33,290 nucleotides of DNA from Pseudotabrizicola sediminis (GTDB lineage Bacteria; Pseudomonadota; Alphaproteobacteria; Rhodobacterales; Rhodobacteraceae), in assembly GCF_004745575.1 (NCBI RefSeq), contig NZ_RPEM01000015.1, positions 24,916 to 58,205 on the forward strand, in the 5' to 3' direction. Shown here piece after piece: positions 4,939 through 25,605 of the stretch. Below the pieces are notes generated by a model. It was not told the origin of the DNA and searched no databases. It was given only the letters and a program-made list of their open reading frames with translations. Numbering within the stretch: position 1 is the first letter of the stretch; each line of letters opens with the position of its first letter. Made by a program: the position numbers and the translations under genes.

Positions 4939-5921
4939 TGCGGTGCCTCCCGCCGCACCAGCCAGCGTGCGGCGTCAGCGATCAGCCCTGCCGATGGGAT
5001 TGACCCGCGCTCTAGTGCGGGTGAGACAGGGATCGGAATATCCTCACCGCCAATGCGCAGCACCGGTTCCTCAAGCCAATCGAAACACCGCTCGCCGATC
5101 CGTGCAGCGATGTCTGAGGCGACTGACCCGGTGACAACAGCCTCGGTTACAATCATGGCGCGACCCGTCCGCGCGACCGACGCAAAGATCATGGCATCGT
5201 CAAGAGGGTTGAGACAGCGCAGGTCAATCACCTCTGCCGTGATGCCCACATCAGCCAACGCCGCTGCCGCCGCCAGCGCCTCGTGCACCATTCGGGACCA
5301 TGTCACAATCGTCAGGTCATCTCCGGCACGGCGCACCAGCGGCGCGCCCCACGGTGCCTCTGGTTCCGCTGTGATGTCGCCCTTCAGTGTGTACAGCCCC
5401 TTATGTTCGATGAAGACTACCGGGTCGGGCTGCTCCAGCGCTTGGCGCAACAGGTGATAGGCGTCAGAGACGCTGGCGGGCATGACAAGCCGTAGGCCCG
5501 GAACATGCAGCATCCATGCCTCAAGGCTTTGGGAATGTTGCGCCGCCGCCGACCGGCCCGTGCCGCCTTGCGTGCGCAACACCATGGGCACGCCGATCTG
5601 GCCCCCGAACATGTATCGGCTTTTCGCCGCCTGATTGGCCAGTTGGTCCATCGCCATGCCGATGAAATCGACATACATCAGCTCTGCAACAGGGCGTAGG
5701 CCGGTCATTGCCGCTCCGATGGCCGCACCTATGATTGCGGGTTCGGAAATCGGCGCATCCATGACACGATGCGCGCCAAACATGTCGATCAGACCCTTGG
5801 TCACGCCATAGGCACCACCGTAAAGCCCCACCTCCTCGCCCAAAAGGATAATGTCGGAGTCTGCCTGCATGCCGTCGATCAAGGCCTGACGAAGCGCCTC
5901 TCGATAGGTGGTCTGAGTCAT
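4929..5921 (-). CDS. acoB: TPP-dependent dehydrogenase E1 beta (acetoin-type)
   Basis: The beta subunit of the E1 heterotetramer activates thiamine diphosphate and helps transfer the acyl group to the lipoyl arm of E2. The 330-residue protein has the transketolase pyrimidine-domain pattern: LLGEEVG near 27-32, DAPISE with the TPP-activating glutamate E60, the AQHSQSLEAW segment with H129 near the active site, and the C-terminal transketolase domain (about 195-320). Length is typical of PdhB/AcoB. The start overlaps the stop of E1 alpha by ATGA, so the two subunits are translationally coupled. AcoB is favoured over PdhB because the partner E2 is the hydrolase-fold AcoC type and a kinase gene is in the same operon. 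Confidence 0.9.
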   Translation of the reverse strand: MTQTTYREALRQALIDGMQADSDIILLGEEVGLYGGAYGVTKGLIDMFGAHRVMDAPISEPAIIGAAIGAAMTGLRPVAELMYVDFIGMAMDQLANQAAKSRYMFGGQIGVPMVLRTQGGTGRSAAAQHSQSLEAWMLHVPGLRLVMPASVSDAYHLLRQALEQPDPVVFIEHKGLYTLKGDITAEPEAPWGAPLVRRAGDDLTIVTWSRMVHEALAAAAALADVGITAEVIDLRCLNPLDDAMIFASVARTGRAMIVTEAVVTGSVASDIAARIGERCFDWLEEPVLRIGGEDIPIPVSPALERGSIPSAGLIADAARWLVRREAPQWA

Positions 5922-6943
5922 GGGGCGGCCTCATACAAGATCGCGCGCAGGCGGTCGGCCTGGGCAAAGGGAGCGGGGGTGCCGGGGGCGTAGACGTCCT
6001 CAAACATCGTCTGCATTCCGGGCGCGGGTGCCGCGATAGCAGAAGCAAGGGCGGCGTCCATTTCGGTGGCGGCCTCGGCGTCGATACGGTCAAGGTCGGC
6101 AGGGCTGACCTGATCTTCGGCATCAAGGGTGGCGCGGGCACGGGCAACGGGATCGCGCAAGCGCCCTTCGGCCTCTTCCTCGGGAGTTCGGTACGGGCTT
6201 TTGTCCATGCGGGCATGGCCAAAAAAGCGGAAGGCCGAAATTTCAAGAAACCCGGGCTGCCCGCTGCGCGCGCTTGCCATCAATGTATGAGCCGCCTGAT
6301 AAACGCTTTCAACATCCGCGCCATCCACCGTTTCGCCCGCAAGACCAAAGGCCCGTGCGCGTTCGGCAAAGGCTACCCGCCCTGCCGAACGGTCAACCCG
6401 CGTGCCCATGCCATACTGATTATTGATACAGCAAAACAGCACCGGCAGATGCCACAGGGCCGCCATGTTCATCGACTCGTAGAGGATGCCTTGCGACATC
6501 GCCCCGTCGCCAAAGAATGCGACCGAGACATGATCCTGCCTACGGTTCCGGGCAGTGATGCCCGCGCCAACCACATGAGGGATACCACCGCCGACAATGG
6601 CATTGGCCCCAAGATGCCCCAGCGCACGGTCAGCGATGTGCATCGACCCCCCCTTACCGCGGCAATAGCCGGTTTCCTTGCCTGCGATCTCGGCCATCAT
6701 CCGGGCAGGGTCTGCCCCCCGGCCCAAAAAGACCCCATGCCCACGGTGGTGGGTGGTAAAGGTATCGCCAGCGCGCATCAGATCGGTCAGGCCCACTACG
6801 CCTTCTTCCCCGATCGACAGGTGCAGCATTGACCCTGCACTTTCGCCCTTGAGGAATAATTCGCCCACCCGTTCCTCGAACGTCCGAATCCGTCGCATCA
6901 TGCGATATCGGGCGACGGCGCCGCTGTTTGTTCTTTCGGTCAT
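5918..6943 (-). CDS. acoA: TPP-dependent dehydrogenase E1 alpha (acetoin-type)
   Basis: This alpha subunit binds the diphosphate of TPP and starts decarboxylation or acyloin cleavage of the substrate. The 341 residues show the E1 alpha pattern: R-x-FEERV near 20-26, HLSIGEE at 41-47, HHRGHG at 65-70, and the TPP/Mg motif from GDGA (145-148) to NNQYG (174-178). YCRGKGGSMH (93-102) is the conserved loop of this family. The C-terminus is normal. The start ATG overlaps the stop of the upstream FGGY kinase (ATGA at 6940-6943), so kinase, E1 alpha, E1 beta and E2 form one coupled operon. Cofactor use is certain from the motif; the substrate (acetoin, a 2-oxo acid, or another acyloin) is not. Confidence 0.92.
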   Translation of the reverse strand: MTERTNSGAVARYRMMRRIRTFEERVGELFLKGESAGSMLHLSIGEEGVVGLTDLMRAGDTFTTHHRGHGVFLGRGADPARMMAEIAGKETGYCRGKGGSMHIADRALGHLGANAIVGGGIPHVVGAGITARNRRQDHVSVAFFGDGAMSQGILYESMNMAALWHLPVLFCCINNQYGMGTRVDRSAGRVAFAERARAFGLAGETVDGADVESVYQAAHTLMASARSGQPGFLEISAFRFFGHARMDKSPYRTPEEEAEGRLRDPVARARATLDAEDQVSPADLDRIDAEAATEMDAALASAIAAPAPGMQTMFEDVYAPGTPAPFAQADRLRAILYEAAP

Positions 6944-8433
6944 TGGACCTCTCGCAGGGGTTTTAGCGCATCATAGGCTGCGCGATATCGGTCATAGATC
7001 GGGGCATAGGCGGCATGGGCCGCAGCATCGGGTGTGATCGTGCGTGCGACGCGCACCATAGCGGCGCAGCCATCCTCGATACAGTCAAAGCGGCCTGCCC
7101 CTGTTGCGGCCAAAATTGCCGAACCAAGGGCGCAGGCCTCGGTTTCTTGGGTCAGAGTCAAAGGCACGCCCAAGGTATCGGCATGGACCTGCAACCAAAA
7201 TTCCGACCGTGTTGCCCCACCTGCAACGACAATCCGGCGCGGCTCGAAAGCATCACCGAAGCTGTCCACGATCATTCGTGTGCCAAAACAGACCGATTCC
7301 ACCAGCGCGCGATAAATATGGGCAGGCGTGTGTTTCAGAGTCAGGCCGGTGATCGCCCCCCGTGCCAGCGCGTCTGTATGCGGTGTGCGGTTGCCTTGGA
7401 AATGATCAACAGCCAGCAACCCCTCGGCACCCGGCTGCAAGGCGGCGGCGGTTGCGTTCAGGGTATCAAAGTCCATATGCTCTGCAAAATTCCTTTTGAA
7501 CCAGGCGATGACCGATCCGGTTGAGGTCTGCCCACCCTCGATCACTTGCTTTCCTGGATAAACGCAATCGGAATAGGTGCCCCAGACACCGCGTGCATGT
7601 GCTGGGCGCAATGCGATGCCAAGGTGCAAATGGCTGGACCCGGTGATCAGTGCCAAGTCGCCGGGTTCGTTTACCCCAAGCCCGATCATTCCAATAAAGG
7701 CATCTGCCCCCCCCTGAACGACCAATGTACCCACCCGAAGGCCAAGATGCGCAGCGGCCTGCGCCGAGAGTCCATCAATTACCTCCCCGGGGCCTACGAT
7801 GGTCGCCGGCCATTTGGCCATCAGATCGGCCAGATCCAGCCGCGCAAGCATCTGCGCGGGCCAACCGCCATGGTCTCTTTGCCAGTGCCAGCGCATCGAG
7901 ATGTTGTTGCGCGACGCACACCAGCGACCCGTCAGTCGGTAATTCAACCAGTCCTGATACTCGCATATCCGGTCTGCGCGGGCATAGATTTCCGGCTGAT
8001 GTCGCTTGATCCACAGCGCCTTTGGGATCATCCATTCCGGACTGACCGGGCCGCCTCCCCCACCATTGATCCGTAAGGCCGGATCGCCGCAGGCAGCCAC
8101 CTCATCCGCTTCTCGGTGTGCGCGCACGTCCATCCACAACAACGCGGAGCGCAGCGGCATGCCATCGGCCGTGCAGGCCACCACGGTGCAGGATGTCGTG
8201 TCCGCAGCCAGCGCAATAATCTGATCCGCCCCGACGCTTGCGGCGGCAAGGGCCGCCCTTACCGCGTCTGCCGCCGCCTGCCACCAATCGTCAGGCGCCT
8301 GCTCCGCCTGCGCAGGGGCGGGGTATTGGGTGGCATAGCTGGCCTTTCCGATGCCGATTGACCGACCATCCAGATCAACGACATGCGCCCTCAACCCTTC
8401 GGTGCCGCCATCTATCCCGATCACGTATCCCAT
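6940..8433 (-). CDS. FGGY-family carbohydrate kinase (ribulokinase-like)
   Basis: FGGY kinases phosphorylate ketoses, polyols or related sugars with ATP. From the ATG at 8433 the protein has 497 residues; that start is preferred over 8496 because a GAGG lies 7 nt upstream and the phosphate-1 motif GIDGGTEG follows at residues 6-13. Other marks are the DTTSCTVV segment (reminiscent of ribulokinase DxTxxTV), LITGSSHLHLG and GGQTSTGS in the middle, and the adenosine motif VVAGGATRSEFW late in the protein. These features sit closer to ribulokinase-like members than to LsrK, by eye. It heads the operon with the E1/E2 complex and shares a divergent promoter with a SorC regulator. Likely substrate class is a pentulose or deoxypentulose, which is an inference. 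Confidence 0.88.
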   Translation of the reverse strand: MGYVIGIDGGTEGLRAHVVDLDGRSIGIGKASYATQYPAPAQAEQAPDDWWQAAADAVRAALAAASVGADQIIALAADTTSCTVVACTADGMPLRSALLWMDVRAHREADEVAACGDPALRINGGGGGPVSPEWMIPKALWIKRHQPEIYARADRICEYQDWLNYRLTGRWCASRNNISMRWHWQRDHGGWPAQMLARLDLADLMAKWPATIVGPGEVIDGLSAQAAAHLGLRVGTLVVQGGADAFIGMIGLGVNEPGDLALITGSSHLHLGIALRPAHARGVWGTYSDCVYPGKQVIEGGQTSTGSVIAWFKRNFAEHMDFDTLNATAAALQPGAEGLLAVDHFQGNRTPHTDALARGAITGLTLKHTPAHIYRALVESVCFGTRMIVDSFGDAFEPRRIVVAGGATRSEFWLQVHADTLGVPLTLTQETEACALGSAILAATGAGRFDCIEDGCAAMVRVARTITPDAAAHAAYAPIYDRYRAAYDALKPLREVQ

Positions 8434-8564
8434 GACACGCCTCTCTGTCGCCGCAGGTGCAATGCTGCATTGCAATATTGTGCAGTCTACGCACAAATGT
8501 AAATTTATTCATTGACCGGCGAATTAGTCAATAGTTAGATGCAGTCGACAATTGGTGAATCTCA
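8434..8564. promoter_or_regulatory. Divergent promoter region with three dyads
   Basis: This 131-bp AT-rich gap separates the FGGY kinase and SorC genes and should carry both promoters. Three candidate protein-binding sites are visible: CTGCA-N11-TGCAG (8465-8485) around the palindrome CAATATTG; ATTGAC-N10-GTCAAT (8511-8532); and GACAATTG (8547-8554), only 10 bp before the regulator's start. GACAATTG recurs twice just downstream of the regulator gene. SorC regulators typically bind such dyads and respond to a phosphorylated sugar. Exact promoter elements were not assigned. Confidence 0.6.
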
Positions 8565-9542
8565 ATGTTTGCACCCAATCCGAATACCGATGATTTGGCG
8601 CGCGTCGCGTGGTTGTACCACGTTGGCCAGATGAGCCAGGAAGATGTCAGCCAAGCGCTTGGCATCTCACGATTCAAGGTGTTGCGTATGCTGGCCGAGG
8701 CGCGGGATCGTGGAATCGTTCGGGTAAGCGTCCAACACGAGATCAGCGAGACCCTTACCTTGGCCGACCGCCTTAAACAGGTTTGGGGCATGACCGAGGT
8801 GATGGTCGCGCCAATGCCTGCGGGCCTTCCTCCGGGGGCTGAAACTTCGGACTTTGCCCGGCGCGCCGTTGGAATTCTGGCTGCTGGCTTTCTGAAGCGG
8901 ATCGGACGTGGTGGACAGGCCGTTACCATTGGCATGGGCTGGGGCTGGACACTTGCGGCGATGGCACGCGCCGTGGCAGACCTGCACAACCCGAACCTGC
9001 GCTTTGTGTCGCTGATGGGATCGATGACGCAAACGTCGGACTCCTCGCCCTTTGATGTTTGCACCAACCTTGCGGCCCTGACCGGAGGCAGTGCGATGTT
9101 CCTGCCTGCGCCTTTTATGGCCGACGACGAAGATGCTTGCCGCCTGATCCTGTCGCAGCGGCTTGTGCGAGAAACCCTCGCCGTGGCGCAGCAGGCCGAT
9201 TATGCGATTGTAAGCGTAGGGGAATGTCAACCTGGCGCGCTGCTGTTCTCGTCATCCGTGCTGACGGCAGAGGATCGGTCCGAGTTGCAGATGGCAGGGG
9301 CGGTGGCAGATACTACGGGGCGATTTTTTCGCGCTGACGGCACGTTGGCCGACACTCGCCTGAACCACCGAGCACCGGCGATAGCGTATGACGACTTGCG
9401 TCGGTGCGATGTGGTGCTTTTGTGTGCCGGTACGGAGAAACTCGTGGCCACGCGCGCGGTCCTTCGGGCCGGTTTCGTGCGCCGGCTGATCATTGACCAG
9501 AAGCTGGCCGAAAGCCTGATCTCCAGCGAAGGCGCACAATAG
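8565..9542 (+). CDS. SorC/DeoR-family sugar-responsive transcription regulator (LsrR-like family)
   Basis: SorC-family proteins bind operators through an N-terminal helix-turn-helix and sense a sugar phosphate through a C-terminal NagB-like domain. The 325-residue protein has the classic start: ARVAWLYHVGQMSQ, then the recognition part DVSQALGISRFKVLRMLAEAR (about 27-47), then the sugar-binding domain from about residue 60, with GMGWGWTL (phosphate-binding-type glycine loop, near 125) and GSMTQ. Length is standard. The family includes LsrR, SorC, CggR and DeoR of Bacillus. It lies between two divergent catabolic operons, so it likely controls both and itself. No strong ribosome binding site is seen before the ATG, and its leader contains a candidate operator. 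Effector unknown. Confidence 0.9.
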   Translation: MFAPNPNTDDLARVAWLYHVGQMSQEDVSQALGISRFKVLRMLAEARDRGIVRVSVQHEISETLTLADRLKQVWGMTEVMVAPMPAGLPPGAETSDFARRAVGILAAGFLKRIGRGGQAVTIGMGWGWTLAAMARAVADLHNPNLRFVSLMGSMTQTSDSSPFDVCTNLAALTGGSAMFLPAPFMADDEDACRLILSQRLVRETLAVAQQADYAIVSVGECQPGALLFSSSVLTAEDRSELQMAGAVADTTGRFFRADGTLADTRLNHRAPAIAYDDLRRCDVVLLCAGTEKLVATRAVLRAGFVRRLIIDQKLAESLISSEGAQ

Positions 9543-9571
9543 ACAATTGACATAAATGTCTGACAATTGTC
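9542..9571. promoter_or_regulatory. Candidate SorC operator: two GACAATTG boxes 20 bp apart
   Basis: GACAATTG occurs at 9542-9549 and, as the full palindrome GACAATTGTC, at 9562-9571. The starts are 20 bp apart, close to two helical turns. Between them GACAT (9549-9553) faces ATGTC (9556-9560). The array begins on the last base of the regulator's stop codon and sits upstream of the oxidoreductase-ABC operon. The same 8-mer is in the divergent promoter at 8547-8554, so the two promoter regions of this unit share a motif. One other copy (26258-26265) lies inside a coding region and is taken as chance. Confidence 0.6.
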
Positions 9572-9616
9572 GAAATGTACGCCAACGGCGGTCAGGAATC
9601 GGAAAGGGGGAAATTT

Positions 9617-10498
9617 ATGACACGGATTGCGCATCTTGGGTTGGGGATCATGGGGCGCGGTATGGTGCGCAACCTGCGCGTTGGCGGGCATGACGTTACG
9701 GGATGGAACCGCTCGGCCCCAGACCTGCCATCAGAGCTTCTTGATCTTTCGCTTGCCCCCAGCATTTCGGCTGCAGTGACCGCTAAAGATGTGGTGACGA
9801 TCTGCCTGACGGGTCCGGATGCTCAGCGGGCGGTTCTGATGGGTGACGACGGCGTGCTCTGCCATGCGCCCGTAGGGACGCTGATCATCGACGCGACAAC
9901 CACCGACCCCGAGCTTGCGCGCGAAATTGGTGCCGCTGCCGCAGACCGCGGGCTGCGCTATGTTGATGCGCCGGTTTTCGGTTCACGCGGCGAGGCATGG
10001 GACGGACGGCTTGATTTCATCTGTGGCGGGTCGGAAAAAGATGTTGCTGACGCCCGCCCGGTGCTGGAGTCTATGGCCGCTACAATCCATCATCTTGGGC
10101 CGGTGGGCGCGGGCGCGGCAGCAAAGCTAGTGGGTAACCTGTTGGTCGCGGCACAGCTTGTCTCTTTGGGAGAAGCACTGGCACTGGCCCGGAAGTCGGG
10201 CCTGCCTGATGCAGCGCTTATGGGGTTTCTGGATGTGACCGACTATTCCTCGGCCCTGATCCGGGGGGTGGGGCGCAACACCCTTGCGGGCGATTTCAGT
10301 CCTCATTTTTATCTTCGCCACATGCTGAAGGACGCACGTCTGATCACCGATCACGCGCATCGTCTTGGGGTGTCGGTACCAATGACAGCCGCAGCTGCCG
10401 AGCAGTTTCAGGCCGCTGTTAATCACGGGCATGGCGACCTGAATGCCTCGGGTCTGCATGTGACGCAATTCGCGAACGCGGGTCTGGAAAAACCCTGA
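9617..10498 (+). CDS. NAD(P)-dependent 3-hydroxyisobutyrate-dehydrogenase-like oxidoreductase
   Basis: Members of the beta-hydroxyacid dehydrogenase family oxidise 3-hydroxy acids or reduce aldehydes and keto groups with NAD(P). The 293-residue protein starts at ATG 9617, chosen for the strong GGAAAGGGGG just upstream and the Rossmann motif HLGLGIMGRG at residues 6-15. It has DATTTDP (92-98), DAPVFGS (117-123) in the substrate-binding position, the catalytic lysine in GAGAAAK (K170) and N174. The second domain continues in the family helical fold. It is the first gene after the SorC regulator and precedes the sugar importer. Its cousins act on tartronate semialdehyde, threonate, 4-hydroxybutyrate and 3-hydroxyisobutyrate; the substrate here is unknown. 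Confidence 0.87.
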   Translation: MTRIAHLGLGIMGRGMVRNLRVGGHDVTGWNRSAPDLPSELLDLSLAPSISAAVTAKDVVTICLTGPDAQRAVLMGDDGVLCHAPVGTLIIDATTTDPELAREIGAAAADRGLRYVDAPVFGSRGEAWDGRLDFICGGSEKDVADARPVLESMAATIHHLGPVGAGAAAKLVGNLLVAAQLVSLGEALALARKSGLPDAALMGFLDVTDYSSALIRGVGRNTLAGDFSPHFYLRHMLKDARLITDHAHRLGVSVPMTAAAAEQFQAAVNHGHGDLNASGLHVTQFANAGLEKP

Positions 10499-11342: not shown

Positions 11343-12362
11343 ATGACCATGACAACCACCATTCCCGCTGACAAGAACGCAGGCCGCAAGGTCGCACTGC
11401 CTTGGTATGAACGCTACATAAACATTGTCGGACCATTGGTCATGATCATTGCGTTGGTGATCGCCATGCTGATCTTCGAACGGCGATATTTCGAATTCCA
11501 GAACATGATGATCATTCTTCAGGATGCTGCCATCTTCATGGTGCTGGGCATGGCTATGACCATCGTCATAACCGGCAAGGGAATCGACCTGTCCATTGGT
11601 GCGGTGGCGGCGCTTTCTGCTGTGATCATGGCGATGCTCATCAAGGATCAAGGCTGGCCTGTCTATCCGGCCATGCTTGCCGGGGTGGTTGTCGGCCTCA
11701 CTTGTGGCACTATCAACGGGCTGGTGATCACCCGACTGAACGTGCCTGACCTGCTCGCGACATTGGCGATGGACCAGATCTACCGCGGCATCGGTCTTGT
11801 GCTGGCAGCCGGCGCGGTTCTGGCGCGATTCCCCGAACCGATCCCTTTTCTAGGCCGTGGCCGGGCTTTTGATCTTATCCCCACGGCCGCCATCGTGGGG
11901 CTAATATTCCTTGCCTTGGGATTTGTGCTTTACCGCTACACTTGGCTTGGCCGCTATGCCATCGCCATCGGCGGAAACCGCGAGGCGGCAGTGCTGACCG
12001 GCATCAACATCCGCCGGCAGAAGGTTTATCATTATATGCTGATGGGCACCTGTGCCGCGATTGCGGGCATCCTGCTGACTGGCCGCCTCAACGCCATCCA
12101 GGCCACCGCAGGGATGGGGTTTGCGCTCCATACAATTGCGGCAGTTGTTGTGGGGGGAACGGCGCTTTTTGGTGGCCGCGGGTCGATGTTTGGTACCTTG
12201 GTCGGCGTGCTGCTGCTTGCCATGGTGACGAATGCGCTGGTGATGTTGCGGTTCCAGTTTTTCTGGCAGCTCGTTGCTTCGGGGATCATCATCATCGCAT
12301 CTATCGGTTTCTATTCCTACCTTCAGCGCCGGGGGAATTCCGACGCCAAGGGGGATGACTGA
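11343..12362 (+). CDS. Sugar ABC importer permease (RbsC-type)
   Basis: The 339-residue integral membrane protein forms the translocation pore, probably as a homodimer. It has the BPD_transp_2 layout: a short cytoplasmic start with a first helix at about 28-46, further hydrophobic stretches at about 62-100 and 105-125, the family's TLAMDQIYRGIGLVL segment, a late glycine-rich helix TIAAVVVGGTALFGGRG, and a final helix near 300-325. The conserved GKGIDLSIGA motif near 79-88 is typical of RbsC/XylH/LsrC relatives. GGAGG at 11332-11337 precedes the ATG. An 88-bp gap before the binding-protein gene holds no clear structure but ends with a good Shine-Dalgarno. Confidence 0.92.
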   Translation: MTMTTTIPADKNAGRKVALPWYERYINIVGPLVMIIALVIAMLIFERRYFEFQNMMIILQDAAIFMVLGMAMTIVITGKGIDLSIGAVAALSAVIMAMLIKDQGWPVYPAMLAGVVVGLTCGTINGLVITRLNVPDLLATLAMDQIYRGIGLVLAAGAVLARFPEPIPFLGRGRAFDLIPTAAIVGLIFLALGFVLYRYTWLGRYAIAIGGNREAAVLTGINIRRQKVYHYMLMGTCAAIAGILLTGRLNAIQATAGMGFALHTIAAVVVGGTALFGGRGSMFGTLVGVLLLAMVTNALVMLRFQFFWQLVASGIIIIASIGFYSYLQRRGNSDAKGDD

Positions 12363-12450: not shown

Positions 12451-13596
12451 ATGAACGGAATGACCAAACTTGCGACCGGTGCCTCGGCACTGGCGATCGG
12501 CCTGATGCTGGCAGGAACTCTGTCGGCTCAGACACTACCCTTGAAACCACTGCCGGATGATGCTGACCGCTATTTCTGGTGGTATCATCAGGTGCAAACC
12601 GACGAAGTTCTGTCCAACATGCAGGAAATTGTCGGCAAGCCAGCCACCGCCATGGCAAGCCCGCCCACCGCACCAATCAAAATCGCGGTGATCTATCCTA
12701 GCCAGGATGTGTCGGATTTCTGGCTGCGCAGCTACCTGTCGATGGAGGCGCGTTTGAACGAAATGGGCCTTCCGTTCGAGGCGGTTCAATACGCGTCGAA
12801 CATGGGCGACTTTCTGCTGCAATCCACTTACGCTGAACAGGCTGCGCGCGAGGATTTCCAATACGTGATCTTTGGCCCGTCAGAGCTTCAGGCGCAACAA
12901 GACGACATCAAGCATCTCATGGATGCGGGCAAGAAAGTCATCGTGCTGAATTATGACACCCCAATCCAAGAATGGGGCGATGACCAGCCGATGATGTACA
13001 CGACGTTCAGCCATCTTTTTGGAGCGCTGAACATCTGTAACTGGGTAGTGGAAAACCTTGGCACCGAAGGCACCTATGCCATGATTCGGGGCATCGTTGG
13101 GGGCATCGACGACCAGCGCTCAGGCGGGTTCCGCGATTGTTTGGCGGAAAAGTCGAACTGGAAATTGGCCTATGAACACTATGGCGAGTTCCAGCGCGAA
13201 GGCGGCTTCAATGGTGCGCAGCTGATCACATCGGCCTATCCCGAGGTGACACTGATCCATAACGCCAACACCGCTATGGCCATGGGTGCAATCTCGGCAG
13301 TTCAGGCAGCAGGGATTGGCGACAAGGTCGGTGTCACCGCGTGGGGCGGCACGGGCGACGAGATCGACGCGCTGAAAAACGGCGAGTTGCTGGCAACCCC
13401 GATGCGCATGTCAGACGATGTCGGTGTGGCCATGGCTGAGGCGATCCGCGCTGATATCGAAGGGCGTACGGCGGATATCCCACTCGTGTTCCTTGGCCGG
13501 ATCGACATCGTCTCGGGCAAGTCCACGCCCGAAGACGTGGAGGCCAAGGCCAACGAGGCCTTCCGCTACACCGGGCGCAACACGCTGGAACGCTAA
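12451..13596 (+). CDS. LuxP-like periplasmic sugar/AI-2-type binding protein
   Basis: This is the soluble receptor of the importer. It has 381 residues from ATG 12451 (GGGAGG 10 nt upstream), with a Sec signal peptide MNGMTKLATG to LSAQ (cut near 26). The fold is PBP type 1. Alignment from memory to Vibrio LuxP is strikingly good: PIKIAVIYP (75-83), VSDFW, the NYDTPIQEW stretch (167-175), the WGG motif (298-300) and MRMSDDVGVAMAEAI (318-332). Of eight LuxP residues that contact AI-2 I place seven as conserved (S88, W91, N167, R223, T274, W298, R319), while LuxP Q77 is D86 here. LuxP normally pairs with the kinase LuxQ; here it is joined to ABC genes. Ligand may be AI-2 or another furanose-like sugar; the pocket suggests but does not prove it. 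Confidence 0.85.
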   Translation: MNGMTKLATGASALAIGLMLAGTLSAQTLPLKPLPDDADRYFWWYHQVQTDEVLSNMQEIVGKPATAMASPPTAPIKIAVIYPSQDVSDFWLRSYLSMEARLNEMGLPFEAVQYASNMGDFLLQSTYAEQAAREDFQYVIFGPSELQAQQDDIKHLMDAGKKVIVLNYDTPIQEWGDDQPMMYTTFSHLFGALNICNWVVENLGTEGTYAMIRGIVGGIDDQRSGGFRDCLAEKSNWKLAYEHYGEFQREGGFNGAQLITSAYPEVTLIHNANTAMAMGAISAVQAAGIGDKVGVTAWGGTGDEIDALKNGELLATPMRMSDDVGVAMAEAIRADIEGRTADIPLVFLGRIDIVSGKSTPEDVEAKANEAFRYTGRNTLER

Positions 13597-13636: not shown

Positions 13637-13653
13637 AGATGTGGGGAAAGACC

Positions 13654-14646
13654 ATGAAAAAGGTTCTCAACGACCCGTTTGCCTATGTCGATGAAATGCT
13701 GGCCGGCTTGTGCGCCGCACATCCTGAATACTACCGCCAGACCGGCGATCAGGGGCGCGTGATCGCACGGGCGCTCCCCATCCGTTCGGGCAAGGTCGGC
13801 ATCGTGTCGGGTGGCGGCTCGGGGCATCTGCCAGTTTTTACCGGCTATGTCGGTCCCGGCCTGCTTGACGCCTGCGCCATCGGTGATGTGTTCGCCAGCC
13901 CTTCGGTCGATCAGATGGCGGACGCCATGCGCGCGGCAAACGGTGGGGCCGGTGTGCTCCGGCTGTATGGTAATTATGGCGGCGACATCATGAATTTCGA
14001 CATGGCCGGCGACATTGTCGAGATGGAAGATATCACCTGTTCCACGGTCGTTCTTGCGGATGATGTGGCCTCGGCAAAATCGGATGAGGCCGAAAAGCGC
14101 CGGGGGGTCGCAGGCATGGTCTATGCCTTCAAGATCGCCGGCGCTGCGGCCGAAGCCGGGCTGGACCTTGCCGGCGTCACCGACGCAGCGCAGCGCGCAG
14201 CAAATGCCTGCCGGTCGGTTGGCTTTGCGCTGTCGTCGTGCACCGTGCCGCAGGCGGGCAGACCCACATTTCAGATCGACGAGGGCGATATGGAAATGGG
14301 CATGGGCATCCACGGCGAACCTGGTGTCTGGCGAGGTCCCCTGCGCAAGGCCGATGTGATTGCCGAAGAAATGATGGATATTCTTTTGGCTGATCGTGCG
14401 TTTTCAGGCCGCGTTTCGGTCATGGTCAATAGCCTTGGGGCCACCCCCCCCGAAGAGCTTTACATCCTTTATCGCATCGTTAAGGCAAGGCTGGAGGCCG
14501 CAGGGGCACAGATTGTCATGCCCCTGATCGGCCGATATGCCACATCAATGGAAATGTCTGGCGCGTCAATCACGCTTTGCCAGCTGGATGATCATCTTGA
14601 GCGTTGGCTGTGCGCGCCCTGCGATTGCGCGTTCTGGAAGGTCTGA
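13654..14646 (+). CDS. dhaK: Dihydroxyacetone-kinase-type subunit DhaK
   Basis: DhaK binds a short ketose covalently and DhaL supplies the phosphoryl group. The 330-residue protein begins MKKVLNDPFAYVDEM, with GGGGAAAG before the ATG at 13654. It keeps the key residues of E. coli DhaK at matching places: GGGSGH with H58, GNYGGDIMNF with D111, and GMGIHGEPG with H220, the histidine that forms the hemiaminal with the substrate. Length and C-terminal LGATP and SITL motifs are normal. DhaL follows at once, with 1 nt between stop and start. No DhaM (PTS subunit) is present, so DhaL is likely ATP-dependent. Natural substrate could be dihydroxyacetone or a four/five-carbon ketose such as erythrulose. 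Confidence 0.9.
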   Translation: MKKVLNDPFAYVDEMLAGLCAAHPEYYRQTGDQGRVIARALPIRSGKVGIVSGGGSGHLPVFTGYVGPGLLDACAIGDVFASPSVDQMADAMRAANGGAGVLRLYGNYGGDIMNFDMAGDIVEMEDITCSTVVLADDVASAKSDEAEKRRGVAGMVYAFKIAGAAAEAGLDLAGVTDAAQRAANACRSVGFALSSCTVPQAGRPTFQIDEGDMEMGMGIHGEPGVWRGPLRKADVIAEEMMDILLADRAFSGRVSVMVNSLGATPPEELYILYRIVKARLEAAGAQIVMPLIGRYATSMEMSGASITLCQLDDHLERWLCAPCDCAFWKV

Positions 14647-14647
14647 C

Positions 14648-15253
14648 ATGCTGACCCGTGACAGCCTTGCCGCTGGCCTTGCCCGCCTTGCTAATCACAT
14701 GGACAGCGTGGCGGATGAGCTGAACGCGCTTGATGGCCAGCTTGGTGACGGTGATCTAGGCATCACCATGGTGCGGGGCGGGCGCGCGGTGCGAGATCTG
14801 CTATCTGACCTTCCCGTCGATCTGGGGCAGGCGCTGCTGCAAGTGGCACAGGCCTTTACCCGCACATCCGGATCAAGCTTCGGCACATTGACCGCTACCG
14901 GCCTTATGGCAGCGGCAAAAGCACTGAAGGGGCGAGAGGCTGCCGACTGGTCAGAAACCTCCGCCCTGCTGATGGCTGCATTCGAGGTGATGCGCATGCG
15001 AGGTAAGGCGGATCTTGGCGACAAGACGGTGCTGGACACGCTGCACGCAGCCGCAACCGCAACCGAAGGCCTGACCGACGCAGCCGAGATCCGCACCGCC
15101 GCGCTTACCGCAGTTATCGGCACCATGGACCGGATGCGCGGAAAGCATGCCCGCATCGGCCGCGCCCGCATTTTTGGTGAGAAATCCGTCGGCCTCGACG
15201 ATCCGGGCATGCGGGCCTTTCTCCACATGCTCAGAGGCATTGCTCCGCCCTGA
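14648..15253 (+). CDS. dhaL: Dihydroxyacetone-kinase-type subunit DhaL
   Basis: DhaL holds the nucleotide and passes its phosphate to the DhaK-bound ketose. From ATG 14648 it has 201 residues. The Mg/nucleotide aspartates are kept (D29, D34, D36 in LDGQLGDGDLG), as are GDKTVLDTL (124-132) and the GRARIFGEKS to DPG segment near the end. Two positions that are histidine in many DhaL proteins (DGDHG and GHxDPG) are leucine here (L37, L183). This may mark a subgroup or changed substrate use. It follows DhaK directly, and the next gene begins about 96 bp later without a clear terminator. Confidence 0.88.
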   Translation: MLTRDSLAAGLARLANHMDSVADELNALDGQLGDGDLGITMVRGGRAVRDLLSDLPVDLGQALLQVAQAFTRTSGSSFGTLTATGLMAAAKALKGREAADWSETSALLMAAFEVMRMRGKADLGDKTVLDTLHAAATATEGLTDAAEIRTAALTAVIGTMDRMRGKHARIGRARIFGEKSVGLDDPGMRAFLHMLRGIAPP

Positions 15254-15349
15254 AATACCAATTTCTTAAATCGTCCTCGGTTGGTTCCAGGGGGGCGGAC
15301 ATTCTTCTGGTGCCATCCAAATCATATCCGTTTCGACAAAGGAAAAATC

Positions 15350-16198
15350 ATGCAAGGCTTTGGCGTTCATACCAGCATGTGGACCATGAACTGGAACCGC
15401 GAAGGGGCCGAGCGCGCTATTGCCGGTGCTGTCCACTACAAAATGGACTTCATAGAAATTGCGCTTCTGACCCCGGAAAAGGTTGATACTCAGCACACAC
15501 GCGCGCTGTTGGATGCAAACAATCTGCGCGCGGTCTGCTCGCTGGGTCTGCCAGAGGGGAAATGGCCCTCGGTCCACCCTGATGCCGCCATAGACCATCT
15601 TAGATTTGCGTTAGACAAGACCGCCGAGATGGGTTGCGAGGCGCTGACGGGAGTCACCTATGGCGGGATCGGACAGCGCACCGGGGTCTATCCGACGCGG
15701 GACGAATACGACAACATTGCCCGTGCGCTGGAAGCGGCGGCTAAACATGCCAAATCGCGGGGCGTGCTGTTCGGGATCGAGCCGGTGAACCGCTATGAAA
15801 ATCACCTCCTGAACACCGGCCGCCAAGCGCGCGAGATGATTGAGCGGGTGGGCGCGGACAACATGTTCATCCACCTTGATACCTATCACATGAATATCGA
15901 GGAAAAGGGCGCTGGCAACGGTATTCTTGATGCGCGCGATTACATCAAATATATCCACCTGTCGGAATCCGATCGCGGCACGCCCGGCTGGGGCACCTGC
16001 GACTGGGACGAAATCTATGCAACCCTTGCCGCGATCGGCTTCAAGGGGGGGTTGGCGATGGAAAGCTTCATCAATATGCCGCCAGAGGTTGCCTTCGGCC
16101 TTGCGGTCTGGCGGCCGGTGGCAAAGGACTTCGAGGAAGTGATGAACAATGGCTTGCCCTTCTTGCGCGGCAAGGCGCGGCAATACGGGTTGATCTGA
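15350..16198 (+). CDS. Ketose 3-epimerase (D-tagatose/psicose 3-epimerase family)
   Basis: TIM-barrel epimerases of this family invert the C3 hydroxyl of a ketose through a metal-bound enediolate. The 282-residue protein starts at ATG 15350, with AGGA 6 nt upstream. All four metal and proton-transfer residues are present and keep the exact spacing of Pseudomonas tagatose 3-epimerase (E152, D185, H211, E246): here E144 in GIEPVNRYENH, D177 in HLDTYHMN, H203 in IHLSESDRGTPGWG, and E238 in AMESF. Its stop overlaps the next gene's start (TGATG). In context it may convert a ketose or ketose phosphate made or used by the neighbouring kinases. The exact sugar is unknown. Confidence 0.88.
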   Translation: MQGFGVHTSMWTMNWNREGAERAIAGAVHYKMDFIEIALLTPEKVDTQHTRALLDANNLRAVCSLGLPEGKWPSVHPDAAIDHLRFALDKTAEMGCEALTGVTYGGIGQRTGVYPTRDEYDNIARALEAAAKHAKSRGVLFGIEPVNRYENHLLNTGRQAREMIERVGADNMFIHLDTYHMNIEEKGAGNGILDARDYIKYIHLSESDRGTPGWGTCDWDEIYATLAAIGFKGGLAMESFINMPPEVAFGLAVWRPVAKDFEEVMNNGLPFLRGKARQYGLI

Positions 16199-16827
16199 TG
16201 GAAACGGATGCGCTTGCCAAACTTATTTTTGCACGTCTTGGTCACGGCCGGATGATCGTCGCCATTGCGGGCGCGCCGGGATCTGGCAAATCAACGCTGG
16301 CCGAGGCCCTTTGTGCTGCGCTTAACGACCAGCGCGCTGGTGCGGCGGCGGTGATGCCGATGGATGGCTATCACCTCGACAATGCCATCCTTGATGCGCG
16401 GGGCCTCCGGGCGCGCAAGGGCTCACCCCCTACATTTGACGTGGATGGTCTGGCGGGCGATCTGGCCCGCGTGCGCGCTGCAGACCGCCCAGTGATCCTG
16501 CCAGTGTTTGACCGCGAGCTAGATCTTGCCCGCGCCGGGGCACGAGAGGTGGGGCCAGAGGTCCCGGTGATCCTCATCGAAGGCAATTATCTACTGCTTG
16601 AACAGGCCCAATGGCGGGATCTGTCACCGCTGTTCGACATGACGGTGTTTCTGGATGTGCCCGAGGCCGAACTAGAACGCCGCCTGATCGACCGCTGGCT
16701 GCATTACGGCCTAGATGCAGAAGCAGCCCGCACCCGTGCGCTTGGCAATGATATTCCCAACGCACGACTGGTGGCGACCACATCCCGCGCTGCCGATATC
16801 ACAATTAAACAAGAGGGTTCTGCATGA
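16198..16827 (+). CDS. P-loop sugar/nucleoside kinase (FrcK/uridine-kinase-like)
   Basis: The 209-residue protein has a phosphate loop GAPGSGKS (25-32), the MPMDGYHLDN segment, a KGSPPTFDVDG segment, and a late IEGNYLLL that matches the Walker B region of uridine- and pantothenate-kinase relatives. These are the marks of the small FrcK-type kinase found in fructose and other sugar ABC loci of rhizobia. Start and stop overlap its neighbours by TGATG (16196-16200) and ATGA (16824-16827), so it is tightly coupled to the epimerase before and to MtnK after. It probably phosphorylates the imported or epimerised sugar, or a related vitamin/nucleoside; substrate is not evident. Confidence 0.8.
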   Translation: METDALAKLIFARLGHGRMIVAIAGAPGSGKSTLAEALCAALNDQRAGAAAVMPMDGYHLDNAILDARGLRARKGSPPTFDVDGLAGDLARVRAADRPVILPVFDRELDLARAGAREVGPEVPVILIEGNYLLLEQAQWRDLSPLFDMTVFLDVPEAELERRLIDRWLHYGLDAEAARTRALGNDIPNARLVATTSRAADITIKQEGSA

Positions 16828-18083
16828 TCGCCTATACCCCCTGCACTACCGAAAGCCTGCGCGCGCGTTTGGCGAATGTGCCCGCTGTGACCGAACGGCT
16901 CGGCACCGATTCCAGCGTCTGGGACGTGCGCGAGGTGGGCGACGGCAACCTGAACCTCGTCTTCATAGTCCAAAGCTTACAAGGCGCGCTGGTGGTCAAG
17001 CAGGCGCTGCCCTATGTGCGGCTGGTCGGGGACAGTTGGCCCCTACCGCTGAAACGGTCTGTCTTCGAATACAACGCCCTGATCCGCCATGCCCTCCGCG
17101 ATCCGGGCCGGGTGCCCGAAATCTATCATTTTGACGAAGTCCAGGCGCTTGTCGTGATGCGCTATCTAAGTCCGCACGTGATCTTGCGCAAAAGCATCGT
17201 GACGGGGGTGCAACACCCGAACCTTGCCGCTGACATGGGGTTGTTTCTGGCGCGCACACTGTTTCGCGGGTCGAACCTGTCGTTGCCCGCACCGCAAGCC
17301 AAGGCTGATCTTGCGCTGTTTTCCGATAATGTTGCGTTAGCCGATATTACAGAAAACCTTGTGTTTTCAGATCCTTATTTCGATGCTGCCATGAACCGGC
17401 ACACGCCGGGGCTGGACCCTTGGATTACGAAACTGCGCACTGATCGCGATATGAAAGTGGCCGCACAGGCGATGAAACATGCCTTTGTCAGCAAGAGCGA
17501 AACGCTGGTGCATGGCGACCTTCATTCCGGGTCGATCATGGTAACGGCCGAAGATACGCAGGTTATCGACCCTGAATTTGCCATCTACGGCCCATTTGGT
17601 TTTGATATCGGAATGCTGCTGGCGAACTTTTTGCTTGGGTATTTCGCGCAATCTGGACACGAAGCCACGCCCGGCGACCGTGCTGCCTATAGAAGTTGGC
17701 TTCTGAGTGTGACGCGCGACACATGGGGCGTGTTTGTCGCAGAGTTTTCCCGGCTGTGGCGAACCGAGCGAACTGGCATCCTCTATCAGCGCGCCCTTTT
17801 CGAGGATCAGGGCGATCCGCTGGCGTCTGAACAGGCGCTGCAAGATGTGTTGCGCGGTATATGGGTCGACGCCATGGGGTTTTGTGGTGTGGAAATGCAC
17901 CGCCGCGTTCTTGGCCTTGCCCATGTCGAGGATTTGGAAAGCATCACGGATGACAGTCGTCGGCTGATTGCCGAACGGCGTGCTCTGGCATTGGGGCGGC
18001 ACGTCACAATCAATCGCGCGATCATTACCATGGAGGGGCTGATTGCGCTCGCTGAACGGATCGAAGAGGAGGATCTGGCATGA
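16824..18083 (+). CDS. mtnK: S-methyl-5-thioribose kinase
   Basis: MtnK phosphorylates methylthioribose (and in the DHAP shunt also 5-deoxyribose) at O1 with ATP. The 419-residue protein shows the whole aminoglycoside-kinase-like MtnK pattern: [10 protein letters not shown] (38-47) as glycine-rich loop, [10 protein letters not shown] with K59, catalytic HGDLHSGSI (230-238, one residue off the common HGDLHTGS) and the metal motif [15 protein letters not shown] (249-263). Length is normal. It overlaps both neighbours by ATGA and is followed at once by mtnA. Methionine-salvage partners mtnB, mtnC and mtnD are absent from the window. This points to sugar disposal rather than methionine recycling. 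Confidence 0.93.
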
Positions 18084-19171
18084 AGGTCAACGGCATTCCC
18101 TACCGCTCGATCTGGACCACGCCAGAGGGCCGTGTGCAGATCATCGACCAAACCCGTCTGCCTCATGAATTTGTGATCGTCGATCTTGCAACAATGGACC
18201 AGGCGGCCATTGCCATTCGCGACATGTGGGTGCGGGGCGCGCCGTTGATCGGGGCGACGGCGGCCTGGGGCATGGCACTGGCGATGGCGGAAGACGCGTC
18301 AGACGCGGGATTGGCAAGGGCCTACGATGCCTTGATGGCCACACGGCCGACGGCCGTAAACCTGCGTTGGGCGCTGGAAGACGTGCGCGCACGGCTGGCG
18401 CCGCTGGCCCCATCGGCCCGCCAGGACGCTGCCAGCGCCCGCGCTGCTGCGATCTGCGACGAAGATGTCGAGATCAACCGCCGCATAGGTGAACAAGGCG
18501 TGGCGCTGATCGAGGCGATTGCGGCGCGCAAGTCCGGTCCGGTCAATATTCTGACCCATTGCAACGCGGGCTGGCTGGCCACGGTGGACTGGGGCACAGC
18601 CACCTCGCCCATCTATCACGCGGTCGAACGCGGGATTGATGTGCATGTCTGGGTGGACGAAACCCGCCCGCGAAATCAGGGAGCGCATCTCACGGCATGG
18701 GAGATGGCAGGTCACGGAATTCCGCATCATTTGATTGTCGACAACGCAGGCGGCCATCTGATGCAGCACGGGCAAGTTGACATGGTGATCGTGGGCACCG
18801 ACCGGACTACGGCGCGCGGCGACGTCTGCAACAAGATCGGCACCTACCTCAAGGCGCTTGCGGCGCATGACAACGGCGTGCCGTTTTACGTGGCGCTACC
18901 CTCTCCCACCATCGATTGGCGCGTGCAAGACGGAGTGCGCGAGATCCCGATCGAAGAGCGTTCGGGCGATGAGGTATCGTTCGTGCAAGGTCGCGATGCG
19001 GCGGGGCAGGTCGGAATGGTGCGGATCAGCCCCGACGCCACTCCTGGCGCCAACCCAGCATTCGACGTAACGCCTGCCCGACTGGTCACTGGCCTGATCA
19101 CGGAACGCGGCGTTGCCCCGGCAACGGCCGCGGGTCTGGCCGCGATGTTTCCGGATCAGGCCCCCTTATGA
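18080..19171 (+). CDS. mtnA: S-methyl-5-thioribose-1-phosphate isomerase
   Basis: MtnA converts methylthioribose-1-phosphate (or 5-deoxyribose-1-phosphate) to the ribulose-1-phosphate. The 363-residue protein, an eIF2B-alpha relative, has [10 protein letters not shown] near 21-30, [14 protein letters not shown] (51-64), the catalytic cysteine C161 in THCNAGWLA and the catalytic aspartate D241 in [10 protein letters not shown], followed by NKIGTYLKA. These match functional MtnA enzymes. It overlaps mtnK by ATGA and ends 2 bp before the convergent second SorC gene. Paralogues that act on ribose-1,5-bisphosphate or 5-deoxyribose-1-phosphate look very alike, so the natural substrate remains open. 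Confidence 0.93.
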
Positions 19172-19173: not shown

Positions 19174-20136
19174 TTAACGCGCGATGTCGAGCAACTCGGT
19201 CGCGGTGTCAGCATCAGTGACCAGATGGGTGGCATAGCCCCCTGTCAGCACCGAATGCATCGGCACCACCTTTTCGGATCCGCAAGACACCAACAGCCCC
19301 ATCTGCAACCCGCGCAGCCGGTCAAGCGTCATTCCCATCATCCGCCCGTCCATGGGGCCGGGCAGTGGCGATCCTTGGGCATCAATGAACCGTCCACACA
19401 ATACACCCTTCGCCCCCGCCGCCTTGTAAACGTCCAGTTCTGCAAGGCTCGCGACTCCTGCGCCCACCACATGACTGTCAGGCAGGCACGATCCGGCCGC
19501 AAATATCGCCTTGGTGCAGGTGCCCAGCGTTGCCAACTGCGCCGCGATGATCGGCTCGGCCATCAGGATTCGGGCGTTTTCGGCATTGGACAGGATGACT
19601 GGTGCGAACAGATTAATGCATTCGGCAGACAGTTTCCGCGCAAGGTTGGTCGAACATGCCTCCGCAGTAAAGCCGAACGGGCTGGGGACCGAACCCACCA
19701 GTTGAAGCACCTTTACATCTTCGGTCTGGATCTGGCCCATGGCCTCGACCGTTTCGAACACAGTTTGGCCCCAAGCGATGCCCAGTCGATCTCCGGGTTC
19801 CAAAAGTGTTGGCAGCCATTCGGCCGCGGCACGCGCCACCCTTTTGAGCGTGCCCTCCACACCCGCGGCAGCAGGCGCGACATACGCGGCCTTCAATCCA
19901 AAACGGTCGCAAAGATCATGGGCGAGGCGGTGGCGGGTAAATGGTTCTTCGGCCAGAGATATACGCACAAGCCCCGAAGCCCTCGCCTCCTGAAGATAGG
20001 TGACCACGGTAGCGCGCGAGACCCCAAGCCGCGTCGCGATGTCATTCTGGTTAAGGCTGTCATGAAAATACAGCCATGCTGCCTCGATCACTGCATCCTC
20101 GCGGATGCCTCGTCCGGCGTTTCGGGGAGTGGCCAT
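19174..20136 (-). CDS. Second SorC/DeoR-family transcription regulator
   Basis: Another sugar-sensing regulator of the SorC family, 320 residues from ATG 20136. It has the HTH start ELIVE-like region IEAAWLYFHDSLNQ, then DIATRLGVSRATVVTYLQEA (about 34-53), and a sugar-binding domain with LGIAWGQTVFE as the glycine-rich effector loop. A longer start at 20181 is possible but would cross candidate operator repeats. It is divergent from the FGGY kinase and aldolase pair and convergent with mtnA. It differs clearly from the first SorC in sequence, so it probably answers to a different sugar phosphate. Confidence 0.88.
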   Translation of the reverse strand: MATPRNAGRGIREDAVIEAAWLYFHDSLNQNDIATRLGVSRATVVTYLQEARASGLVRISLAEEPFTRHRLAHDLCDRFGLKAAYVAPAAAGVEGTLKRVARAAAEWLPTLLEPGDRLGIAWGQTVFETVEAMGQIQTEDVKVLQLVGSVPSPFGFTAEACSTNLARKLSAECINLFAPVILSNAENARILMAEPIIAAQLATLGTCTKAIFAAGSCLPDSHVVGAGVASLAELDVYKAAGAKGVLCGRFIDAQGSPLPGPMDGRMMGMTLDRLRGLQMGLLVSCGSEKVVPMHSVLTGGYATHLVTDADTATELLDIAR

Positions 20137-20143
20137 CAAAGTA

Positions 20144-20183
20144 CCTGCCAAATTTTTTTGGGTTGTCCGCAACCCTGCCAAAT
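20144..20183. promoter_or_regulatory. Candidate operator: repeated CCTGCCAAAT with central dyad
   Basis: CCTGCCAAAT occurs twice, at 20144-20153 and 20174-20183, 30 bp apart (about three helical turns). Between them GGGTTG (20160-20165) and CAACCC (20170-20175) form a 6-bp dyad around TCCG. The array fills the gap between the second SorC gene and the FGGY kinase, where a repressor of both would bind. Repeats are exact, but binding is inferred. Confidence 0.6.
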
Positions 20184-21761: not shown

Positions 21762-22417
21762 CCGAATTCGAATTACGCGCGGATCTGGTGGCGCGGGCTA
21801 AGGAACTGGATGCCTCCGGTCTGAACCGTGGGGCATCTGGCAACCTTTCGGTGCGCTGCGGAACCCACATGCTGATCACGCCATCGGCGGTGCCTTATAT
21901 TCAATTAACTGTCGACATGATTGCCGCCATGCCGTTGGAAGGCGATTACGGGGCATGGGAAGGGCCGCGAAAGCCGTCGACCGAGTGGCGCTTCCATTTG
22001 GACCTTATGCGCGCCCGGCCAGATATCGGTGCGGTTGTGCATACTCACGCGCCTTGGTGCACGGTGCTTGCGATTGCCCGCCAGCCGATCCCGGCGGTTC
22101 ACTACATGATGGCAGCCTTTGGCGGGCCTGAAATTCCGGTCTGCGACTATGCCCGCTATGGCACGGAAGACCTTTCCACCCATGTGGTCACAGCGATGGA
22201 GGGGCGCGCGGGCTGTCTGATGGCCAATCATGGCATGCTGACAGCGGCCAATACGCTGACCCGCGCCTGCTGGCTGGCGCATGAGATGGAGGCTCTTGCG
22301 CACCAGCATTATCACACATTGCTGATTGGCGGCGGTCACATACTGACCGAGGCGCAGATCGCCGACGCCGCCACCGGCTTCGCCAGCTATGGGGTGCAAG
22401 ACCGGACCGATTCCTAG
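21758..22417 (+). CDS. Class II aldolase, FucA type (L-fuculose-1-phosphate / deoxyribulose-1-phosphate aldolase)
   Basis: Zinc aldolases of this type split ketose-1-phosphates into DHAP and an aldehyde. The 219-residue protein follows E. coli FucA closely: SGNLS (27-31), phosphate-binding PST then catalytic E76 in EWRFH, zinc ligands H95 and H97 in VHTHA, the HYMMAAFGG segment with Y116, and H158 in ANHGML. Each lies three residues after its FucA counterpart (E73, H92, H94, Y113, H155). The EWRFH motif argues against the related dehydratase MtnB. It could use the product of the coupled FGGY kinase, or 5-deoxyribulose/methylthioribulose-1-phosphate from MtnK-MtnA as Ald2 does. Its stop codon overlaps that of the convergent permease gene in CTAG. 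Confidence 0.9.
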   Translation: MTEFELRADLVARAKELDASGLNRGASGNLSVRCGTHMLITPSAVPYIQLTVDMIAAMPLEGDYGAWEGPRKPSTEWRFHLDLMRARPDIGAVVHTHAPWCTVLAIARQPIPAVHYMMAAFGGPEIPVCDYARYGTEDLSTHVVTAMEGRAGCLMANHGMLTAANTLTRACWLAHEMEALAHQHYHTLLIGGGHILTEAQIADAATGFASYGVQDRTDS

Positions 22418-24158: not shown

Positions 24159-24177
24159 GCGGTTCCCCCCGTAAATG

Positions 24178-24201: not shown

Positions 24202-24210
24202 GAATCATGC

Positions 24211-25572: not shown

Positions 25573-25605
25573 GTTGTTCCTCCTCTGGTTTGTTTGTCCC
25601 GACGC

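Follow-up and report, generated by a model that had tools for sequence, protein, structure and literature searches.

The LuxP-like protein encoded in this DNA appears, from sequence comparison, to be an importer receptor of the LuxP family rather than LuxP proper, and the agreement of its binding site with the LuxP pocket is, on the aligned sequences, a family signature common to other ABC importers and not special to this protein. Its gene lies in the window, by which we mean the whole analysed stretch of 33,290 nucleotides from Pseudotabrizicola sediminis, and the importer that it would serve may be one for a small C5 deoxy- or keto-furanose, a reading of function and ligand class to which we give about an even chance. 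Older surveys, in their available portions, placed LuxPQ receptors in the Vibrionales with a few outliers (PMC2561040, PMC3386761), and the accessible text of a 2025 survey counts 267 predicted LuxP proteins, mainly from Proteobacteria (PMC12268683). No description of these LuxP-like importers was found in the available portions of the literature on LuxP, deoxypentose and AI-2 uptake. Here, ABC importers with LuxP pockets come from Rhodobacterales, a Labrenzia and Deinococcota-assigned bins, some of them inside Lsr-like operons. These importers hint at the source of a quorum signal receptor, and its origin becomes testable as importer first, sensor later; they also carry the warning that pocket residues alone are insufficient for naming AI-2 receptors, and they supply named candidates for screening ligands in the presence and absence of borate.

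The gene is an intact open reading frame of 381 codons' worth of residues (Table 1). Among all PDB chains, a phmmer search placed four distinct LuxP sequences at the top (E 6e-51, 176.7 bits), with the first non-LuxP match at 54 bits. The AI-2 contact positions in LuxP, which we take to be Q77, S79, W82, N159, R215, T266, W289 and R310, bore these letters at all eight places in a MAFFT alignment in which the LuxP chain was numbered from the alignment, and seven of the eight contacts are kept in the window protein, the exception being Q77, which is D86. S265 of LuxP, a position neighbouring the pocket residue, corresponds to N273. The eight pocket positions are invariant in all 13 aligned sequences (the window protein and 12 relatives). 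A chance or generic pocket is ruled out by 13 other sugar-binding proteins from the fetched loci, of which 10 keep none of the eight contacts and three keep one, a control of limited independence that is only modest because nine of the 13 form one related group and remote alignments can slip. An AlphaFold2 model of the window protein, built from the 13 aligned sequences (mean pLDDT 79.0, pTM 0.80; residues 1-44 and 248-252 poorly modelled), had LuxP in all of its eight best PDB places (E 3.0e-26 to 7.7e-24, the next at 1.2e-17). The sequence-only reading, which had claimed a LuxP-like protein with seven of eight contacts, both arginines kept and Q77 aligned to D86, is thus confirmed by the search, the alignment and the model, and the structural comparison that it had proposed gives LuxP as the solved structure closest to the predicted fold, with TM-scores of 0.75 and 0.83 against 1zhh.

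Compared with LuxP of Vibrio harveyi (1jx6, 1zhh, 2hj9, 4yr7), the window protein is alike in its predicted fold, its contacts and an identity of 30-31%; it is unlike LuxP in having D for Q77 and N for S265, in belonging to the other main clade of the family, and in being encoded beside an ABC ATPase and a permease, with no LuxQ match in the window (query V. campbellii LuxQ, E 1e-10), an absence that had been correctly anticipated. We did not file the protein as LuxP, since Q77, a LuxQ partner in the window and placement in the LuxP clade were each tested and none was found.

Whole-genome searches with a threshold of E <= 1e-20 recovered relatives in 25 of 394 genomes from the same family and 11 of 385 from the class, and a group C protein (see below) used as query did so in 17 of 398 genomes from the phylum. 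The window's own genome is part of every count, and there is slight overlap among the three samples. Named genome contigs, scanned with three close sequences, yielded 12 loci. The resulting 69-row alignment divides by pocket letters, given here in the order LuxP 77, 79, 82, 159, 215, 266, 289 and 310. Group A, that of the window protein, reads DSWNRTWR (15 rows from 13 distinct places). Group B reads DSWARTWR in 23 rows, with close variants in three more, and keeps six of the eight LuxP residues, with A, S or G at the position of N159. Group C reads ESWNRTWR (five loci in four genomes) and differs from the LuxP pocket only at Q77, which is E. The LuxP clade itself reads QSWNRTWR in 20 rows, and three divergent rows differ further. 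At position 77 every one of the 20 LuxP-clade rows has Q, and the remaining 49 rows have D or E. At position 265 groups A and B have N throughout (41 rows), the LuxP clade has S or A (20/20 rows) and group C is mixed (S in three, N in two). These two positions split the family into Q77 with S or A265 (the LuxP clade) and D77 with N265 (groups A and B), group C having E77 together with S or N265. In the tree, groups A and B form one clade with support 99/99, which contains the window protein and leaves it outside the LuxP clade; group C is the sister of the LuxP clade with support 93/90, a join at which the tree program warns of long branches meeting. Both supports were unchanged in a tree rebuilt without L129, which has a stop inside, and with L094 cut at its stop, which comes after the end of its gene. 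L096 (the same record as L050), L102 (overlapping L030), L110 (overlapping L031), L103 and L104 were omitted from the trees and are counted in the 69 rows.

An ABC ATPase accompanies the LuxP-like gene in 15/15 rows of group A and a permease in 14 of them, the exception being a 4.6-kb contig; in group B each is present in 21 of 26 rows, and both are found in all five group C loci and all three divergent rows. Neither adjoins any of 19 LuxP-clade loci, and in 16 of these 19 Q77 loci LuxQ is matched no more than about 2 kb away (three of the matches weak, 62-75 bits: L113, L117, L124). The sequence-only reading had set the gene with a ribose-type ATPase and permease, and this association holds in the window and extends to the relatives.

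Within the window, ten genes between 9617 and 19171 share a strand and are separated by -4 to 96 bp (Table 1). The importer has the composition of ribose-type (CUT2) systems, in which a Peripla_BP_4 binding protein adjoins a BPD_transp_2 permease and a sugar ATPase. In this it is like the RbsB system, from which the receptor differs in scoring at most 50.5 bits against ribose-binding proteins in the same PDB search and 51.6 bits against the RbsB model (cut-off 337). The divergent operon runs from FGGY1 through E1 alpha and E1 beta to an E2 with a hydrolase domain, which is the acetoin-dehydrogenase layout. Between the two operons, the closest solved relatives of SorC1 are LsrR (97.6 bits) and DeoR (96.2 bits), and the inverted repeat that follows its gene is a possible SorC operator. 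A related half-site occurs at 8546-8554, ahead of the SorC1 gene; the number of half-sites over the window was not above chance (9 found, 7.8 expected), and an operator string of our own devising had no match there.

Table 1. Features of the window, in window coordinates, and the group C locus on its own record
Feature	Position	Strand	Remarks
E2-like protein with lipoyl, E3-binding and alpha/beta-hydrolase domains	3718..4938	-	acetoin dehydrogenase E2 253.5 bits, cut-off 307
E1 beta subunit (E1b)	4929..5921	-	NF006667 342.2 bits, cut-off 321
TPP-dependent E1 alpha subunit (E1a), PDH/acetoin dehydrogenase type	5918..6943	-	
FGGY kinase, pentulose-kinase-like (FGGY1)	6940..8496	-	ribulokinase 313.4 bits, LsrK 177.3 bits, both under cut-off
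SorC-family regulator (SorC1)	8565..9542	+	NCBIfam DeoR 157.2 bits, LsrR 117.5 bits, both under cut-off
Inverted repeat GACAATTGACA/TGACAATTGTC	9542..9571	.	11-nt arms, 91% complementary, 8-nt gap, between SorC1 and importer operon
HIBADH-type beta-hydroxyacid dehydrogenase	9575..10498, start probably 9617	+	43-44% to Trueperaceae homologue in similar cluster
ABC ATPase, sugar type, single nucleotide-binding domain, 258 aa	10551..11327	+	matches first half of two-domain sugar ATPase models
ABC permease, BPD_transp_2 (PF02653)	11343..12362	+	profile match
LuxP-like periplasmic binding protein	12451..13596	+	pocket D86 S88 W91 N167 R223 T274 W298 R319
DhaK-type dihydroxyacetone kinase subunit	13639..14646	+	360.1 bits, below cut-off 406.25; 57% in Trueperaceae
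DhaL-type kinase subunit	14648..15253	+	profile match; also in Trueperaceae
Ketose 3-epimerase	15281..16198, start probably 15350	+	221/282 residues (78%) identical to D-tagatose 3-epimerase 7dz2
Nucleoside/nucleotide-kinase-family protein	16198..16827	+	NF006746 281.6 bits, cut-off 250
MtnK, 5-methylthioribose kinase family	16824..18083	+	TIGR01767 455.4 bits, cut-off 275
MtnA, methylthioribose-1-phosphate isomerase family	18080..19171	+	TIGR00512 418 bits, cut-off 279
Second SorC-family regulator	19174..20181	-	
Second FGGY kinase, xylulokinase-like	20211..21761	+	187.3 bits, under cut-off
Class II aldolase, fuculose-phosphate-aldolase type	21758..22417	+	under every cut-off
Group C locus L096	NZ_CP061502.1 158864-179760		Roseicitreum antarcticum plasmid pRA01

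In the reading that we prefer, the receptor would catch a C5 furanose, such as 5-deoxyribose, 5-methylthioribose, a 1-deoxypentulose or a ketopentose like L-xylulose, and pass it on to the permease and ATPase, whose genes lie directly upstream. MtnK and MtnA, with a class II aldolase, could then convert 5-substituted riboses to DHAP and an aldehyde; alternatively, the 3-epimerase, an FGGY kinase and the acetoin-dehydrogenase-type complex could take a 1-deoxypentulose to acetyl-CoA and a triose. DhaK and DhaL would phosphorylate trioses, and SorC1 would sense a sugar phosphate. The nearest described relatives of the first route are the DHAP shunt and 5-deoxyribose salvage (mtnK-mtnA-ald2; PMC6079011, PMC12632272), where MtnK-MtnA substrates are 5-deoxyribose and 5-methylthioribose (PMC12632272); LuxP does not occur in either paper. 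The window is alike in having MtnK and MtnA over cut-off, a class II aldolase nearby and a sugar importer in the cluster, and unlike in that its aldolase lies in a separate operon. The aldolase scores under all cut-offs of models that are not specific for the shunt's Ald2, and it is a possible ketose-1-phosphate aldolase acting after MtnA. The MtnK of the window is the sole match in its genome, over cut-off, and no MtnB passes the cut-off there, a combination that fits a DHAP-shunt-like use; the role of MtnK and MtnA may instead be the salvage of internal methylthioribose, with no tie to the importer beyond the common operon.

In favour of a C5 furanose as the ligand, MtnK, MtnA, DhaK and DhaL lie near the LuxP-like gene in four of the 15 group A rows (the window, L099, L108 and L109), and HIBADH in three of the 15. 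Against it, the neighbouring genes suggest several substrates and vary between relatives. MtnK and MtnA are absent from the stretch examined in the other 11 rows, two of which (L103, L104) are short contigs, and L099 has no HIBADH. L100 and L101, which at 75% identity are the next closest after L099, have different sugar genes nearby.

In LuxP, the residues that reach the C4 hydroxyl of AI-2 are Q77 and W82 (PMC12921845); a D or E at position 77 thus keeps a hydrogen-bond acceptor for a sugar hydroxyl, and we infer that a carboxylate at this position suits an ordinary sugar hydroxyl. LuxP is activated by L-xylosone (EC50 ~2 uM) and L-xylulose (~6 uM), both of which are most active only with boric acid, but not by D-xylulose, D-xylose or L-xylose (PMC12921845). 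It has also been crystallised with 1-deoxy-alpha-L-xylulofuranose-1,2-borate (by the title of PDB 4yr7), and sulfone inhibitors are proposed to contact R215 and R310 in the manner of S-THMF-borate (PMC3794749). Since the clade with six of eight contacts lies, in two annotated loci, beside sugar-acid genes and LuxP itself takes L-xylulose and 1-deoxy-L-xylulofuranose-borate, a near-complete LuxP pocket does not identify AI-2 as the ligand; since both arginines are kept, the ligand may nevertheless be a borate ester, AI-2 included. Acetoin dehydrogenase acts on methyl ketols, and a 1-deoxypentulose is one, which is what suggests the route through FGGY1 and the acetoin-type complex.

Three other functions have to be weighed against import of a C5 deoxy- or keto-furanose. 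An ordinary importer for a ketopentose or ketohexose (L-xylulose, L-ribulose or a tagatose-like sugar), drawing on the 3-epimerase and the FGGY kinases, is in our view rather unlikely. The epimerase is 78% identical to D-tagatose 3-epimerase and has counterparts in L099 (85%), L101 (69%) and L100 (33%), the activation of LuxP by L-xylulose agrees with such a ligand, and group B lies beside sugar-acid catabolism genes in the two annotated loci examined (in Ruegeria pomeroyi and Phaeobacter inhibens, genes for L-rhamnonate dehydratase, a DHDPS-family protein and aldehyde dehydrogenase). Yet this leaves unexplained MtnK and MtnA, the acetoin-type complex and the gene set common to the Trueperaceae, D-xylulose does not activate LuxP, and the A, S or G in place of N159 means that the group B ligand may differ. 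A sensory role, in which the receptor would signal through a membrane output protein as LuxP does through LuxQ, is highly improbable. Its precedent lies in five group B loci without ABC genes (L094, L095, L120, L122 and L123, from two Vibrio records and three genomes of one family), whose LuxP-like proteins are 40-44% identical to the window protein and whose genes adjoin those for a second binding protein and a membrane protein of about 830 residues. Pfam finds HAMP, GGDEF and EAL domains in that membrane protein (L094 and L120), by which it is of the cyclic-di-GMP type. These loci, however, belong to group B, outside the window's branch; rows with the window's pocket have transporter genes, and neither LuxQ nor a HAMP-GGDEF-EAL gene was matched in the window. 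The five loci themselves present a possible cyclic-di-GMP sensor built from an importer receptor.

The sequence-only reading had named AI-2, or a chemically similar furanose, as a possible ligand. Import of AI-2, as borated or unborated DPD released by neighbouring cells, would have FGGY1 phosphorylate the signal and the acetoin-type complex split the phosphorylated diketone, in place of LsrK, LsrG and LsrF, and we hold it to be quite unlikely. The seven kept contacts speak for it, as do several traces of Lsr systems: LsrR is level with DeoR as the closest solved relative of SorC1, LsrK (5ya0, 166.7 bits) is the third PDB match of FGGY1, L108, which has the window's pocket, carries an LsrF over cut-off, as does the genome of L109 on another contig, and group C, the sister of LuxP, has in its neighbourhood an LsrK that passes its cut-off together with genes resembling LsrG and LsrR. 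Lsr systems that lack LuxS have been described in S. meliloti and Rhodobacter (PMC3386761), and AI-2 binding was reported for three tested domains from Proteobacteria and Deferribacterota (PMC12268683), both according to the text available. The window system is also like Lsr in that it would import a furanose and has a SorC-type regulator in its neighbourhood; it is unlike Lsr in its single-domain ATPase and single permease gene. Against AI-2 stand the D at position 77 and the N at 265, the greater nearness of FGGY1 to ribulokinase (313 bits) than to LsrK (177) and of SorC1 to the NCBIfam DeoR model (157) than to LsrR (118), and the content of the genome. In this genome (G000, 99.99% complete), LuxS, LsrG and LsrF had no match, LsrK reached at best 177 bits (cut-off 528) and LsrB 62.5 bits (cut-off 384), and AI-2 processing of the group C type was rejected here on these scores; LuxS was matched in five of 14 control genomes and in none of the 11 genomes searched for this study, and the LsrK, LsrG, LsrF and LsrB searches had no positive control, since no control genome passed these cut-offs. 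Of the earlier proposal, then, the importer is supported and a similar furanose fits, but AI-2 itself finds no support in this genome.

Group C is a different matter. LsrK scores 784-806 bits in its four genomes (cut-off 528) and is annotated as lsrK at the locus on Roseicitreum antarcticum plasmid pRA01, an LsrG-like protein scores 104-126 bits in the four (below the cut-off of 135), and an LsrR-like regulator scores 291.6 bits in the one locus tested (below the cut-off of 486); LsrB passed its cut-off in none of 14 genomes, all four of group C included. From these neighbours, the group C protein with its ABC genes is a candidate LuxP-type AI-2 importer, and the LuxP-like importer inside Lsr-like operons is likely the sister of LuxP. 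Genes for AI-2 processing are thus linked to a LuxP-like importer in these four other genomes, where LsrK lies beside it, and not in the window genome. The group C operons (L049-L052, L096) also hold an RbsD-like protein and a class II aldolase.

Parts of the window's gene set recur elsewhere, and its order partly recurs in bins assigned to another phylum. The Trueperaceae loci L108 and L109, short metagenome bins of 19.8 and 15.0 kb whose Deinococcota label consequently rests on binning, both hold a SorC-like regulator, MtnK, MtnA, a bifunctional aldolase, the importer, DhaK, DhaL, HIBADH and two transketolase halves; L108 additionally has a RuBisCO-like protein and, at the locus end, its LsrF (376.9 bits, cut-off 297). 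The RuBisCO-like protein scores 223.7 bits against MtnW (cut-off 409) and 89.6 against OiaX (cut-off 700), and passes neither. D-apiose, a branched furanose that binds borate, was considered in view of this protein and the transketolase halves of the Trueperaceae; with these cut-offs failed and no transketolase pair matched in the window, it was set aside as a ligand and is a minor possibility only.

The divergent operon recurs more widely. Among 14 matching records, six plasmid loci were examined, and five have the FGGY1-E1a-E1b-E2 module with a SorC-type regulator and a ribose-type importer. The module occurs without LuxP on plasmids of Tritonibacter, Rhizobium, Roseateles, S. meliloti (E2 annotated in two pieces) and Nitratireductor, where its neighbours are a sugar-binding regulator and a different ribose-type importer; on a Priestia plasmid the arrangement is looser. 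An FGGY kinase, acetoin-dehydrogenase-type E1/E2 and a SorC-type regulator can thus be seen as a recurring module with exchangeable sugar importers (window 3718-8496; L149-L152, L154 and L155). Genome G386 has relatives, 53-79% identical, of the epimerase, SorC1, FGGY1, E1a, E1b, E2, DhaK and DhaL, but the importer that accompanies them is another one: its binding protein has 5bra, which is named for ribose, as closest match and scores only 90 bits to SmLsrB; the group C locus of G386 (L052) lies elsewhere in its genome. Of 13 further genomes that bear LuxP-like genes, only two yielded FGGY1 orthologs: the genome of L099, next to the LuxP-like gene, and G386, at a distance from that gene.

A joint reading would take LuxP-type receptors to have been originally nutrient importers for methylated C5 furanoses, possibly as borate esters, with the window operon an undescribed route for a 1-deoxypentulose (or DPD) in which the FGGY kinase and acetoin-dehydrogenase-type complex yield acetyl-CoA and a triose, and with LuxP derived from a group C-like AI-2 importer through loss of the transporter and a change from D or E to Q at position 77; as a whole we regard it as doubtful. 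Next to the genes discussed here, a second sugar ABC importer operon, of the maltose type, adjoins at window positions 22414-26760, beside which a regulator-like gene (26747-28000) was assigned by eye to the ROK family.
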